From the NCBI RefSeq assembly GCF_000328685.1, contig NC_019974.1, positions 611,001 to 675,000 on the forward strand: a stretch of DNA of 64,000 bases, read 5' to 3'. The notes below the pieces were generated by a model. The model was given only the letters and a program-made list of their open reading frames with translations. It made no database searches and had not been told where the DNA came from. The DNA is from Natronococcus occultus SP4. GTDB lineage: Archaea; Halobacteriota; Halobacteria; Halobacteriales; Natrialbaceae. This document shows positions 2,759 through 35,260 of this stretch, in pieces. The translations under genes and the position numbers were made by a program. Within the stretch, counting starts at the first letter, position 1. Each line of letters opens with the position of its first letter.

Positions 2759-3973
2759 TTACTTCTCGATAATACTTTCCTCGACGGCTTCCCCGAAGTG
2801 CCGCGCCGTGTCCTCGTAGTACAACAGGAGCTCGTCGCCGGCCTCGAGCTCGGTCACCGCCTTCCGCCCCTCGCTCGTGGGTACCTTGATCGTCTCGGCG
2901 TTCTGGAGCAGGGTCTCGACGCGATCGCCGTCCGCGGTCTCTAAGGCGATCCGGAACATCGGTCGCTGCTCGATTTTGACGCGGCCGACGATCGCCTCGC
3001 GGGTGTTGCCGTCGGTGTCGACGACCTGGACCTCGTCGCCGCTCTGTAGCTCCGAGAGGTACTTCGTGCCGCCGTCGGGCGTGCGGACGTAGGCGTGGAC
3101 TGCGCCCGCGTTGACCCGGAACGGACGGGAGGCGACGTACGGCGATTCGGCGGTCTCGGCGTGGACGAAGACGAGCCCGCGGGCCATCGAGCCGACGAGC
3201 ATCCCCTCGTCGTGTTCGAGCAGGGAGCCGGTGTCGACACAGACCCGGTCGGCGCTGCCGATCTGCTCGATATCGAGGACGTCGGCGTACTCCAGCTCCA
3301 GGGACTCGCGTTCGGCCTCGTCGCGCACCTCGACGGTACGGCGGATCTCGTCGGGGTCGTCCGAATCCAGCAACACGGCGTCGGCGCCGAGCTCAAGGGT
3401 CTCGAAGGCGGTTCTGGCCTCGTCGGCGGAGGTGACCCCCGCGACGAGTTCGGTCTCGTCGCCGATGCGTGCGATCAGGTTCTCCAGCGGGATGATCGTC
3501 CAGTCCTCGCCGACGACGATCGTGTGGTCGGCCTCCTGGGCGGCCGACTCGGCGAAGGCCTCGTACTCCTTTCCGAGGATGCGGACGTACGCGCCCCGAT
3601 CCAGCTCGCCCTCGCGGCGCAGCGTCGAGAGATCGGCCGAGCCCGAGAGGTCGCCCGGAAGATCGATCGTTCCGTCACCCTCGCCGTCCTTGCCGACGAC
3701 GACGGCGTCGGGTTCGGCGGTCGACTCCGGCTCCGATTCGGTCTCGGCCTCGTCGACGACGTCGACGTCGTCGACGTCGTCGACCAGCGTGACGTCCCCG
3801 TCGGTGCGAAACGCCGCGACGTTGATCTCGCCGAGTTCGCGGACGCGTTCGACGTCGTCCTCGTCGACCAGTACCCAGTCCGCGCCCGCCTCGAGCGCGG
3901 CCGTGATCCGTGCGCGGCGGGCGTCCCAGTCGCCGACGGCGTCGTCGGCTTTGACCCAGACAGCTCTCGTCAT
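2759..3973 (-). CDS. aroB': 3-dehydroquinate synthase II (archaeal type)
   Basis: 404 residues. In archaea that lack DAHP synthase, this NAD-dependent enzyme converts the C7 amino sugar made by AroA' into 3-dehydroquinate, the first ring of the shikimate pathway. The N-terminus MTRAVWVKADDAVGDWD, the internal GADWVLVDEDDVERV, the Lys-bearing VVVGKDGEGDGTIDLP, IIPLENLIA and the C-terminal GDELLLYYEDTARHFG are characteristic of the family. An acidic low-complexity stretch (about residues 66-88), encoded by a run of GACGTC repeats, separates two conserved blocks. Its partner aroA' is about 3.7 kb away in the trp operon. The start ATG at 3971-3973 begins the conserved sequence. Confidence 0.93.
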   Translation of the reverse strand: MTRAVWVKADDAVGDWDARRARITAALEAGADWVLVDEDDVERVRELGEINVAAFRTDGDVTLVDDVDDVDVVDEAETESEPESTAEPDAVVVGKDGEGDGTIDLPGDLSGSADLSTLRREGELDRGAYVRILGKEYEAFAESAAQEADHTIVVGEDWTIIPLENLIARIGDETELVAGVTSADEARTAFETLELGADAVLLDSDDPDEIRRTVEVRDEAERESLELEYADVLDIEQIGSADRVCVDTGSLLEHDEGMLVGSMARGLVFVHAETAESPYVASRPFRVNAGAVHAYVRTPDGGTKYLSELQSGDEVQVVDTDGNTREAIVGRVKIEQRPMFRIALETADGDRVETLLQNAETIKVPTSEGRKAVTELEAGDELLLYYEDTARHFGEAVEESIIEK

Positions 3974-11558: not shown

Positions 11559-12029
11559 ATGGAGGATGTCACCGACGCCGGGATCTACGCGCGGGAGTCG
11601 TCGTACCTCGACCGATACGTGCAGGTCGGCGTCGCGGGCGGACGGGTGTTGCGTGTCACGTTCCCCGAGACGCCCGAGGACGACGCCGAGGACGCCCACC
11701 CCGTCCTCGATCGGATCTTCGAATATCTCGACGGGCTCGAGGAGATCGCGTTCGACGACGTCCAGGTCGCGATGACGATGCCGACCGACCAGCGCGCGGT
11801 GCTCGAGGGGGTTCGGGAGATCCCGTACGGCGACCAGGTCGACGTCCGGACCCTGACACGGATGACTCCGGAGCTCGATCACGAGGACGATGCGGATCTG
11901 ACGCTGGTCCGGACGGCGCTCGACAGCAACCCCGCACCGATTCTCGTCCCGGACCATCGGGTCCGCGACGGACCGAGCGCCGCGCCCCCGCCGATCGAGC
12001 AGAAGCTGCGCTCGCTCGAGGGGCTGTAG
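11559..12029 (+). CDS. Alkyltransferase (MGMT/ATL)-like protein without active-site Cys
   Basis: 156 residues. The C-terminal half has the MGMT/ATL DNA-binding layout: [15 protein letters not shown] matches the region following the first helix, [18 protein letters not shown] matches the usual NP...PCHRV block, and a C-terminal KLRSLEGL follows. The alkyl-acceptor Cys is replaced by Asp132 (codon GAC at 11952-11954), so it cannot be a classical suicide methyltransferase. It could be an alkyltransferase-like sensor of damaged bases. It is divergent from the trp operon; the start is the ATG at 11559. Confidence 0.72.
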
Positions 12030-12100
12030 CAGTAGTTGGTACTACGTATTTTTATCAGAACGAGGAACTCGGATCGGCTGAATCGTTACGTAGAGCGTAC

Positions 12101-12373
12101 TTAGCTATCGTCAGACAGTTCATCCTTTTTAGTGAAGAGAAGTATCGCTATTACCGCTCCGAAAACTGCATGAGACAGTCTAAGAGTGTTGGTATCGACC
12201 GTATCCGAAAACTGGGTTAACACGATTACGAAGGCAGTTCCATAGAGGACACACGGAACAATGAGATATACTGTGAGCGCCCTACTTCGTTCCATACCAC
12301 TAGTTTTCATATGCTTATTCATGTACTCTTCGACAAGAGATATGTTTACTCTACTGATTGGTTCGTGGGCCAC
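12101..12373 (-). CDS. Small membrane protein, unknown, AT-rich
   Basis: 90-residue open frame with two hydrophobic segments (about residues 30-55 and 63-80) and a charged C-terminus, KKDELSDDS. Its codons are much more AT-rich than those of the neighbours and it is less acidic. This suggests recent acquisition, or that it is not a conserved gene. I do not recognise it. Confidence 0.45.
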   Translation of the reverse strand: MAHEPISRVNISLVEEYMNKHMKTSGMERSRALTVYLIVPCVLYGTAFVIVLTQFSDTVDTNTLRLSHAVFGAVIAILLFTKKDELSDDS

Positions 12374-12585
12374 TATATGTAGCGGCTGTCGCTCTTGAGT
12401 ACAATTGCGCTTGAAATGAACAGGCGTTACGCAGAGATGCCCACGTACCTTTTTCTCGTCGGGTTCGATCGCGTGGCTCGCTCACCACTCCTCCAAAAAT
12501 CTACGCTAAAAAACCGCTCGCTCCCGATGGTCGCTCGCGGGTGCCGTACTTGAACCGCACCGCAGCGTTACCTGTTCCGCCTGTA

Positions 12586-32242: not shown

Positions 32243-33003
32243 CGGCCATCACGAGGCCAGCAGGCCTCGAGCGGGCGCTCGGCGAGCCAATCGAGCAGCG
32301 CGTGGAGCCGATCCCGCCCGGTCTCGAACAGCTGCCGCCCCTTCTCGGGATCGGCCTGGGTCGGTCGCCCGACCGCGCCGCTCTCGGAGAAGTCGATCGT
32401 GTCGAACCCGAGGACGGCGCCGTGGATCGACTCGCCCCAGCGCTCGCTCGCGCCGGCCTCGGCGGCCTCGAGCGCGTCGGGTCGCACGAGGTCCTCGCGG
32501 AGGTGCCACAGCAGGCTCGACTCCGCCGCGTCGGCGTGGCCGCCGTCCTCGTCGAACAGCTCGTCGGCGAGCTCGTCGACGGCGTCCCACCAGTTCCAGG
32601 GCGGGGCGAACGCCGTTCGCTCCTCGCGCAGCCGACGGGCGGCCCGGCGGAGCGCCTCCGAGTTGCCGCCGTGGCCGTTGACTACGACGACCTTCCGGAC
32701 GCCGTGGGCGGCGAGGCTCGAGATCGTCTCTCGGACGTAGTCCTCGAAGGTCTCCGGGCCGACGTACAGCGTCCCGTCGAACTGGCGGTGGTGTTCGCTG
32801 ACGCCGACCGGCAGCGTCGGGAGGACGACCGCGTCCTCGCGGTCGGTCGCCGTGTGAGCGAAACCTTCGGCTGCCATGTGGTCCATCCCCAGCGGGAGCG
32901 CGGGGCCGTGCTGTTCGGTGCTTCCGACGGGAAGGACGGCGACGTCGGCCGCGTCGACGTCCTCGGCGGCCGCCGTCGTCGTCCGTTCGGCGAGCAATGT
33001 CAT
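32239..33003 (-). CDS. Creatininase-family amidohydrolase
   Basis: 254 residues. Metal-binding motifs: VGSTEQHGPALPLGMDH (with the Glu, His and Asp ligands), VVVNGHGGNSEALRRA and GGHADAAESS. Creatininase-fold enzymes hydrolyse cyclic amides; the archaeal homologue ArfB removes the formyl group from a riboflavin/F420 precursor, an equally likely role. I use ATG 33001-33003 (MTLLAERTT); upstream frame includes repeats and looks non-coding. The ATGA overlap with the FAD oxidoreductase shows coupled translation. Confidence 0.87.
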   Translation of the reverse strand: MTLLAERTTTAAAEDVDAADVAVLPVGSTEQHGPALPLGMDHMAAEGFAHTATDREDAVVLPTLPVGVSEHHRQFDGTLYVGPETFEDYVRETISSLAAHGVRKVVVVNGHGGNSEALRRAARRLREERTAFAPPWNWWDAVDELADELFDEDGGHADAAESSLLWHLREDLVRPDALEAAEAGASERWGESIHGAVLGFDTIDFSESGAVGRPTQADPEKGRQLFETGRDRLHALLDWLAERPLEACWPRDGR

Positions 33004-33140
33004 ACCCGTCGGTGGGCGCCGGAGGAACTTATTTACACGGGGAAGAATCGAAAAAGAGAGCGGACGAAACCACTTGGGGTGGTCGAACGCGTCTGCCTGA
33101 GTGTGTGTGGTCGTAGTCACGTTGATACCAAACCGAGACA

Positions 33141-33248
33141 CACCGCCGTTTCAGCAATTCTGGAAGACGACCCTCTTATCCCACCCACCACCGTTTCAGC
33201 AATTCCGAAAGGTAGACTGCTTGCCCACCCACCACCGTTTCGTGAATT
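33141..33248 (-). repeat. Degenerate 44/45-bp tandem repeat with CCACCACCGTTTC cores
   Basis: CCGTTTCAGCAATTC occurs at 33146 and 33191 and a diverged CCGTTTCGTGAATT at 33235, giving periods of 45 and 44 bp. Each copy is preceded by C/A-rich CACCxACC. On the minus strand the core reads GAAACGGTGGTGGGTGG, loosely like an archaeal origin-recognition box. It lies in the AT-rich interval upstream of the creatininase operon. Confidence 0.6.
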
Positions 33249-33415
33249 ATATCAGTAGATAGTATCACGTTTTCTTTCTTCAGGATCTTGTCTGAAACTC
33301 GCGTTACGTCCAGGAAAAGCAGGTAACGCCGCAACAATTGACTCCTTTGATAGCTGTCAAAAGAACCCTGCTGAATATAGAGGATGGATTCAGCACGTAG
33401 CTTTTGATTCACCAC
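33176..33415 (-). CDS. Doubtful 79-residue ORF in AT-rich island
   Basis: Begins GTG and overlaps the lipoprotein stop by 7 bp. Its C-terminal third is encoded inside the tandem repeat. It lacks haloarchaeal acidity and any recognisable motif. It may be a remnant of a larger gene or non-coding; I list it only because of the coupled-looking start. Confidence 0.2.
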   Translation of the reverse strand: MVNQKLRAESILYIQQGSFDSYQRSQLLRRYLLFLDVTRVSDKILKKENVILSTDIIHETVVGGQAVYLSELLKRWWVG

Positions 33416-34131
33416 GTCAGATTGCCGTCTTCATCCCACTGACAAAATGGCGTCTCATCTCTCACGTAGAGTGCTTCAAAGCGTAACTCCTCATCAGAAG
33501 TAATCCACAGACCTTTCGTTGAAGCGTTTTCGTGGACGCGCCACGTTTCTTCGGTTGAGAGGTTCAATTCCGAGACTGCGAATTCTCCGGTATATTCTCC
33601 AAAATAGTCAGTATTGGAAACAGTAGTCTGACTCCTTGCTTCAATCTTGATCTGCTCATCTATGAGAACCGGGTCATCCAGCAATTTGCCTTCGCTATGT
33701 TCATGTTCGATCCGAATATCAATACTCACATCCTCCTTCAGTCGGTTCTTTACCGTCAGTTCTCTCCCTTCTCTGGGAAGCGTTTCCTCTACCTGAAGTT
33801 GACTCACTTCCCCGTCTTCTGTAACAGCAGGTTCGTAGTACGCACCACTGTCGGTAATATATGTCGTACCAATATCAATTAACTCCGGCAATAGTAGCTC
33901 GTCGGTGGTTTCGTATTTTCCCCCTTCAATCGCGGCAACCGTCTCTTCCTCAGCAGGCTCCGGCAACCGATTGACGGGTGCCCATTCGTGATCGCACACT
34001 TCATAATCGCTATACTTGACCTCATTATCACCGCTACTTGTGTTTCCACCATCCTGTTCATCATCGCTTAGACAACCAGCAACCACAGACGTTCCCAGAC
34101 CTATGCTGGCGAGGAGTTTCCGGCGTTTCAT
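33409..34131 (-). CDS. Predicted exported lipoprotein, unknown
   Basis: 240 residues. MKRRKLLASIGLGTSVVAGC has an N-terminal Arg pair (Tat-like), a hydrophobic core and a lipobox-like VAGC; lipid attachment at Cys20 is likely. After a short Ser/Asp/Gly linker the body is beta-rich (VKNRLKEDVSIDIRIEHEHS), a pattern shared by many haloarchaeal surface lipoproteins. Base composition is distinctly AT-rich compared with the surrounding chromosome, which suggests horizontal acquisition. Start is the ATG in a short AT-rich leader. Confidence 0.78.
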   Translation of the reverse strand: MKRRKLLASIGLGTSVVAGCLSDDEQDGGNTSSGDNEVKYSDYEVCDHEWAPVNRLPEPAEEETVAAIEGGKYETTDELLLPELIDIGTTYITDSGAYYEPAVTEDGEVSQLQVEETLPREGRELTVKNRLKEDVSIDIRIEHEHSEGKLLDDPVLIDEQIKIEARSQTTVSNTDYFGEYTGEFAVSELNLSTEETWRVHENASTKGLWITSDEELRFEALYVRDETPFCQWDEDGNLTW

Positions 34132-34591
34132 ATCAATAATCTTTCAACTACTGTGCAAGTACTTTCTGGTGTGATGATTTCTCAGTGCCTCACGTGTTCA
34201 GGATGAGGTCTGATACATTCGCGCTCTGTATTCAGCACGACTCTCTCTCTCTCTCTCAACATCTCGCCTTCCTGATGGAAGTATCCGCATTACGTACGCA
34301 CGCTCTACGTAACGATCCGACCGACTCAGATTCACGATCCAGAGTGAATAAAAAACCGGACTACCAACTACTGTTACTACCGGGGACTGATTGAGCCCAC
34401 CCACCTGCGTCTCCTCCCCACTCCATTTTCCGAGAGGAACGCTACTCGTGGGGTCGCGGCGGGAAGAAAACTCCGCGATGACCCGTCGAGAGAATCGTCT
34501 CTCACACCTCGGTTCATCACTGTACCACCCATTCGAGAACAGTGTGATTGGACCGCCGTCGTGCCATCTCTCTAGCTAGCAGACTCTATTC

Positions 34592-34604
34592 TATATTATA
34601 TACA
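34592..34604 (+). promoter_or_regulatory. Strong TATA-like tract without a following gene
   Basis: TATATTATATACA is one of the most TATA-like stretches in the window. A start site about 25 bp on would be near 34620, just ahead of two perfect hairpins and no clear ORF, so the product, if any, may be a non-coding RNA. Confidence 0.4.
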
Positions 34605-34619
34605 ATACATTTATTAAAG

Positions 34620-34815
34620 ATGCTGTGAAACCACAACCGAAGAGTACGTCGTCGTAGGATGACGCGGAGTACTGGTACTCCGCCACGAGAGTCGAAGATG
34701 CCCCTTCGCACACTTGTTCCGTTTTCCCGCCTTTCGCTCTTGGACAGTTGCTCTCAACTGTCCGCTCGATGGTTCACCCTTCCTTTCGATTGGACCAACA
34801 TGGAGGTACCTCCAC
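34620..34815 (+). ncRNA. Candidate structured RNA, unassigned
   Basis: Downstream of the TATA tract lie a hairpin with arms GCGGAGTAC/GTACTCCGC (34664-34672, 34675-34683), a hairpin with arms GGACAGTTG/CAACTGTCC and a CTCT loop (34742-34750, 34755-34763), and the palindrome GGAGGTACCTCC (34802-34813). All are perfectly paired. Ends are guesses. The family is unknown; a transposon end or terminator pair is an alternative explanation. Confidence 0.25.
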
Positions 34816-35260
34816 TCTTGTACCCGCCGGTATAGTCATGAACCGAAGTGCGTGCCGTGTTCCCAGTCATGAACTGAGGTGCACGCTTTGGACGAGAGGA
34901 CTCTGCAGAACTCTCAGGTCGGGAATCATGGGGACTCTGACTTCACGCGTAGAACGAGTCTCTCGTCGGATGATGCTATCGAATTCAATATGTTGTATAA
35001 TTGCTACTATCCTAATTATGAATATTGTTGTGGTCGAGCCTTCCTAAACAGAGGAAGAGTAAGTAACGCTGTGGAAGACATCGAGCGTAGCATCCGCAAG
35101 CAACCAACGGGAGCGAATGGCCTTTTTCATCGAAGTTTTTGCACCGAGTGGTTCCACGCTTCGCGCGGAATCCCGAGGCGGAAAAACTTCGGTTCGCATC
35201 TCTCCGTAACGATTCGCTGTCAGCAATTCTTGAGAACTGAGATCCGGAGACGGAACGGCG

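Follow-up and report, generated by a model that had tools for sequence, protein, structure and literature searches.

A probable nest of mobile DNA in Natronococcus occultus SP4, centred on a passenger-gene element resembling a mobile insertion cassette

An AT-rich island in the genome of the haloarchaeon Natronococcus occultus SP4 (Natrialbaceae) is in good probability a nest of mobile DNA, whose main unit is a passenger-gene transposon similar to a mobile insertion cassette. It lies in the 64-kb stretch NC_019974.1:611001-675000, which we analyzed as a whole and refer to as the window, with positions counted from its first base. Five lines of direct evidence bear on this: the island is an insertion relative to related genomes, the ends of an element can be delimited within it, members of the element family are flanked by target duplications, their passengers are diverse, and one and the same element occurs at different places. 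Movement in trans and the order of events are what we infer from them.

The AT-rich island of the original prediction is evident in base composition: 1-kb bins 33001-34000 and 34001-35000 have 49% and 50% GC, compared with 61-74% in most bins of the window. The island site was compared across the genus genomes, among which G093 has no anchor there. Against two genomes that lack it, the island (33205-35219) is an insertion, and three others hold different inserts. In G087, the equivalent of position 33204 directly joins the equivalent of 35220, which marks an empty site in this same-genus comparison, and G088 is likewise empty, with a single copy of a repeat, CACCACCGTTTCAGCAATT, that borders the island on its left. 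The inserts of G090, G091, and G092, ∼0.75-1.0 kb long, occupy the same position as the island, and that of G091 (L018) has subterminal parts of the element in common with the window. G089 and G094 show a short intergenic space without the CACCACCGTTTCAGCAATT repeat. This insertion-prone spot is flanked by conserved genes, one creatininase-like and one DUF7388. The main parts of the island and its left border are listed below, where R1 denotes a 78-position sequence model of the element end, built from 18 aligned ends.

33138-33247, no strand: CACCACCGTTTCAGCAATT repeat, three copies at 45-bp spacing (the third divergent), left border of the island
33253-34373, plus strand: passenger-gene TIR element, CAGTAG...CTACTG, 1121 bp, delimited by R1 end matches
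33249-33313, minus strand: left TIR, R1 match of 47.1 bits
34303-34377, plus strand: right TIR, R1 match of 73.4 bits (E 7.5e-22)
33409-34131, minus strand: passenger gene for a 240-aa lipoprotein-like protein, with a lipobox-like VVAGC recognized by eye
34374-35059, no strand: orphan segment, ∼686 bp, 51% GC, no relative found
35060-35217, plus strand: remnant of a short family member, aligned to the complete 280-bp copy L117

Parts of the island recur across its own genome and on Natrialbaceae plasmids, where window-like left and right ends flank other contents. At E 0.01, R1 ends were present in all nine genus genomes (28, 37, 14, 75, 28, 40, 52, 27, and 24 matches), and at E 1e-6 in 92 of 125 Natrialbaceae genomes, covering 22 of 29 genera. 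We paired 39 sets of ends, mostly the best-listed R1 matches together with L036, L038-L040, and the window, which is not a random sample; loci with one end only (L124, L152, L153, L157, L159, and L165) were left out. The paired ends, ∼75 bp each in the window element, enclose units of 280 bp to 9.1 kb. Of the 39, 22 are flanked by a perfect 4-bp target duplication, nine more agree at three of four positions, and the other eight at two or fewer, whereas shuffled pairing yielded on average 2.2 perfect duplications and at most 9 in 10,000 shuffles. The bases duplicated by the family are NTAN.

One element was recovered from two species: L115 (G094, Natronococcus sp. CG52) and L116 (G093, AD-5) share 95% identity over their full length and lie in unrelated flanks. 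At the lower end of the size range, complete family members of 280 bp such as L036 and L117, the latter with a perfect GTAG duplication, agree with the description of MITEs (short, non-coding, with TIRs), which the 1121-bp gene-bearing window copy does not. The remnant at 35060-35217 matches the interior of L117 with 76% identity over 158 columns and has lost both termini. A second family member in the window (12026-12545) sits in the window's other AT-richer bin and combines the third R1 match (12026-12095, minus strand) with a match to the 35090-35211 block. Outside Natrialbaceae, a family end adjoins an OsmC gene on a plasmid of Haloarcula sp. JP-L23 (L206, 3002-3066), with a weakly matched right end.

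The passengers differ widely in kind. Twenty passenger proteins were scanned, ten against Pfam and ten against NCBIfam. In Pfam, the curated cut-off was exceeded by a methyltransferase, DUF2270, an alpha/beta hydrolase, a PHO4 transporter, an F420-dependent oxidoreductase domain with HTH_10, a BAT/HTH_10 regulator, and a Cys/Met PLP enzyme; NCBIfam gave an IS110 transposase within L106. Two passengers below the cut-off are clear in kind (a second hydrolase and a maltose-acetyltransferase-like protein), further matches are weaker (ArsR-like, sigma-like, MOSC-like, and UspG-like), and six of the 20, including the window lipoprotein, have no family in the library used. On annotated plasmids, paired ends enclose a Gfo/Idh/MocA oxidoreductase (H. 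turkmenica pHTUR01) and a hypothetical protein (N. versiforme pNVE500). Passengers of 89% identity, inverted relative to their ends, were found in L150 and L151 from two species; they form a pair of a PLP enzyme and a MOSC-like gene, and annotated genes of these kinds also adjoin an end in L211. The IS110 transposase is the only one among the 20 scanned passengers, and its gene (NF033542; L106 1602-2606) is inserted in a 3.9-kb element with a perfect TTAC duplication.

The lipoprotein-like protein carried by the window copy matches no Pfam or NCBIfam family, and 41 of 101 family genomes contain a relative. Element ends were absent from all 11 loci with such relatives that we examined, so the lipoprotein is no usual passenger of the family, and we rejected its relatives as regular cargo. 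Just within the element ends, an inner inverted repeat, CTGCTGAATATAGAG ... CTCTGTATTCAGCACG (33362-33397 / 34215-34245), weakly resembles short stretches of plasmids from several haloarchaea; it may belong to the ends or represent a nested element of greater age.

A helper transposase was sought among genes with DDE_5 and DDE_3 domains in Pfam, which we take to be of the IS701 and IS630 types, respectively. Family ends bracket DDE_5 genes at none of 26 loci, and a single partial end accompanies DDE_3 genes at one of 30, so that a helper of either type is not supported. Two plasmids have a transposase gene adjoining a short family copy, but outside it, and an IS5-type neighbour in L205 was discarded as helper, its ends differing from the family ends.

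Together with inverted ends on both sides, the target duplications of the family and its unrelated passengers without a transposase are traits of a mobile insertion cassette; the window copy taken alone lacks the duplication, its flanking 4-mers being ATAT and TTAC, and it may thus be a recombinant of two elements. Mobile insertion cassettes such as MIC231 of Bacillus cereus likewise have transposon-type ends, a passenger, no transposase of their own, and target duplications; in its accessible part, PMC2266710 mentions passenger genes for IS231-type elements and has MIC231 among its references. In contrast to these, the Natrialbaceae family is archaeal, occurs family-wide, and carries many passengers in units of 0.28-9 kb, and we found no insertion sequence with its ends.

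Haloarchaeal MITEs are the other close comparison. According to the accessible text of PMC3119063, those of Haloquadratum are transposase-free, mostly non-coding, and ∼520 bp long or shorter, with one type having a probable protein-coding ORF. TIRs, the lack of a transposase, dispersal, and target duplications are common to both groups, and the short members of our family (280-500 bp) are MITE-like, but many Natrialbaceae members hold ordinary genes. In its available main text, a review of MITEs in prokaryotes from 2024 (PMC10969869) uses none of the terms passenger, cargo, or mobile insertion cassette. A literature search that left subscription papers and ISfinder outside its scope returned no account of such cassettes in Natrialbaceae, which is therefore weak evidence of novelty.

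On the reading that we favour, a nest of cassette-like elements, the unit 33253-34373 consists of inverted ends that bracket an ordinary gene, here the lipoprotein-like one. A transposase encoded elsewhere would recognize these ends, insert the unit at NTAN, and duplicate 4 bp. A second, shorter member would have inserted to the right of the first and decayed to the remnant at 35060-35217, and the orphan segment would have arrived with the mobile DNA or through recombination at the site.

Provided that the family is what it resembles, a transposase-less cassette would be present throughout a whole family of haloarchaea, would carry individual genes for metabolism, transport, and regulation to new places, replicons, and species, and would represent a concrete route of gene exchange in these organisms. 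The R1 end model offers a ready search tool for such cassettes, and how they pick up genes and which enzyme moves them would become testable. A more far-reaching version, which we consider improbable, sees in the family an undescribed Natrialbaceae gene shuttle with CAGTAG...CTACTG ends, moved in trans and able to take up almost any gene, with the orphan segment as its first non-coding (RNA-gene) passenger.

The orphan segment (34374-35059) lies between the two elements, with the right TIR of the first on one side and the decayed second member on the other. It contains all the features that had drawn attention to the region, and the TATA box, the two 9-bp hairpins, the palindrome, and the repeat of 31-bp period lie exactly where they had been predicted; one further motif copy had been missed:

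34592-34604, plus strand: TATA-like box TATATTATATACA, unique in the window
34664-34683, plus strand: perfect 9-bp hairpin GCGGAGTAC-TG-GTACTCCGC
34742-34763, plus strand: perfect 9-bp hairpin GGACAGTTG-CTCT-CAACTGTCC, 4-nt loop
34802-34813, no strand: 12-bp palindrome GGAGGTACCTCC
34834-34881, plus strand: two direct motif copies AGTCATGAACYGARGTGC, 31 bp apart (34834, 34865)
34505-34521, minus strand: third, inverted copy of the motif, AGTSATGAACYGARGTG
34618-34905, plus strand: stable predicted fold, a string of hairpins, candidate small RNA

The sequence TATATTATATA likewise has a single occurrence in the 64-kb window. Perfect stems of at least 8 bp with loops of 2-8 gave four counted hits (two hairpins) in 34578-35000, while shuffles of this stretch averaged 0.042 and reached the observed count in 0 of 500. 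Across the window there are 14 perfect stems of at least 9 bp with loops of 2-6, of which the hairpins at 34664 and 34742 are the only pair less than 120 nt apart, compared with ∼0.3-0.4 pairs at random placement by rough arithmetic. The longest perfect hairpin of the window, with a 15-bp stem and a 3-nt loop, is at 3752-3784.

Searches for relatives of the orphan segment were negative throughout. At the DNA level, the 125 family genomes matched only in its own genome, which holds no second copy. Among 391 genomes of the class, 56 including its own matched at E ≤ 0.1, with all foreign matches spanning at most ∼50 columns; the six loci inspected from this search were all chance-like. Plasmids and phages yielded no relative. 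Exact patterns from the segment were absent from genome contigs, and in viral contigs one was absent while others occurred in 2 and 7 contigs without similarity beyond the pattern. Rfam gave no match at the gathering score or at E 10, and a tRNA search found none. A covariance model of 34624-34764, built from a single sequence, recovered only itself in the 125 genomes (next best E 0.21 per genome).

A non-coding RNA from the hairpin segment is possible. It would be the product of a lineage-specific small-RNA gene, perhaps regulatory, that starts at ∼34625 and forms a 280-350-nt string of hairpins; we put this forward tentatively, and it can hold alongside a mobile-element origin of the flanks. 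The plus strand of 34618-34905 folds better than the minus strand (z -3.56, equalled by 0 of 200 shuffles, vs z -2.15, equalled by 7 of 200), its predicted minimum-energy structure equals the centroid, and six overlapping 120-nt windows of this strand have z of -2.4 to -3.2. A TATA-like box ∼20-30 nt upstream is at a distance that fits a plus-strand start, the body (34624-34980) has 55% GC between AT-rich borders of 33-34% GC, and no ORF with a family is present in the segment.

Against a small RNA, equal folding occurs among comparison windows of 288 nt, 172 in all: 64 from this window (32 positions) and 108 from 20 mobile loci (54 positions), both strands of each. Four of them (∼2%), three from one locus and one from elsewhere, are as stable as the core, which had z -3.38 in that run; by this measure the fold is unusual without being exceptional. 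The candidate has no relative in any collection searched, and the plus strand of 34132-35260 contains no T-run terminator. By eye, no CGAAA BRE, the haloarchaeal consensus given in the accessible part of PMC4983044, precedes the TATA box. A scan for promoters and terminators stayed near the shuffled expectation, using bacterial-type models unsuited to archaea. Intergenic small RNAs of Haloferax volcanii, as described in the same part of PMC4983044, resemble the candidate in their intergenic position, a TATA-like box upstream, and the lack of an ORF; the candidate differs in being known from sequence alone, in lacking the CGAAA BRE, and in having no relatives. We consider it slightly more likely that the segment is unexpressed acquired DNA than that it would give, from the TATA box at 34592, a structured RNA of ∼280-350 nt. 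By itself, the hairpin segment matters only given a transcript.

Rather unlikely, in our judgement, is that the hairpins and the three AGTSATGAACYGARGTG copies are DNA sites bound by a regulator or by a protein of replication or recombination, derived from captured plasmid or virus DNA, and that they act, if at all, in double-stranded form. Three exact copies of the motif, one of them inverted, fall within 380 bp of a segment that lies among mobile DNA, and at up to three mismatches the window has four matches against 0.42 expected from shuffling. The palindromes are strand-symmetric, and the minus strand too folds somewhat better than its shuffles. On the other hand, plasmids, phages, and viral contigs offer no match beyond the pattern itself, and no excess of the motif is apparent elsewhere in the genus: at up to two mismatches its own genome holds four matches, three of which are the orphan-segment copies, compared with two for a control.

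A decayed protein gene would suit an area of passenger genes, yet the six frames of the segment show no Pfam match at E 1 even when read through stops, and we think such an origin quite improbable. The same result for 34378-35260 agrees with the original prediction that the hairpin segment has no credible ORF.

The segment had also been proposed as the end of a mobile element carrying a guide-type RNA. The mobile-element part holds for the edges of the region, formed by the TIR end at 34303-34377 and the remnant at 35060-35217; the hairpins themselves sit between these edges in sequence without relatives. A guide RNA of an IS200/IS605 (TnpB) or IS110 element is very improbable. A structured non-coding stretch does adjoin a mobile-element end, and structured RNA beside mobile DNA is what the comparison with archaeal IS200/IS605 omegaRNAs (PMC12558985) had been based on, but the suggested search for tnpB/tnpA remnants in the flanks was negative, with no TnpB, TnpA, or IS110 protein among eight neighbouring proteins or in the six frames of the segment. 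In addition, the segment has no Rfam family and is single-copy in the genome, and the neighbouring element is of TIR type with family-level target duplications, unlike IS605-type elements as presented in the available portion of PMC3119063.

Equally hard to credit is an integron-like cassette array at the island site with CACCACCGTTTCAGCAATT as attachment site: copies of CACCACCGTTTCAGCAATT do border different inserts at one place, but at up to two mismatches the repeat is limited to this locus (1-2 copies, in five of nine genus genomes) and is thus no general attachment site, the window insert and the G090 insert have TIR ends instead, and we rejected the array for want of a recombination site common to many cassettes in the genome. 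The CACCACCGTTTCAGCAATT repeat may be a site for a regulator or for local recombination; its 45-bp-spaced copies lie upstream of the creatininase-like gene.
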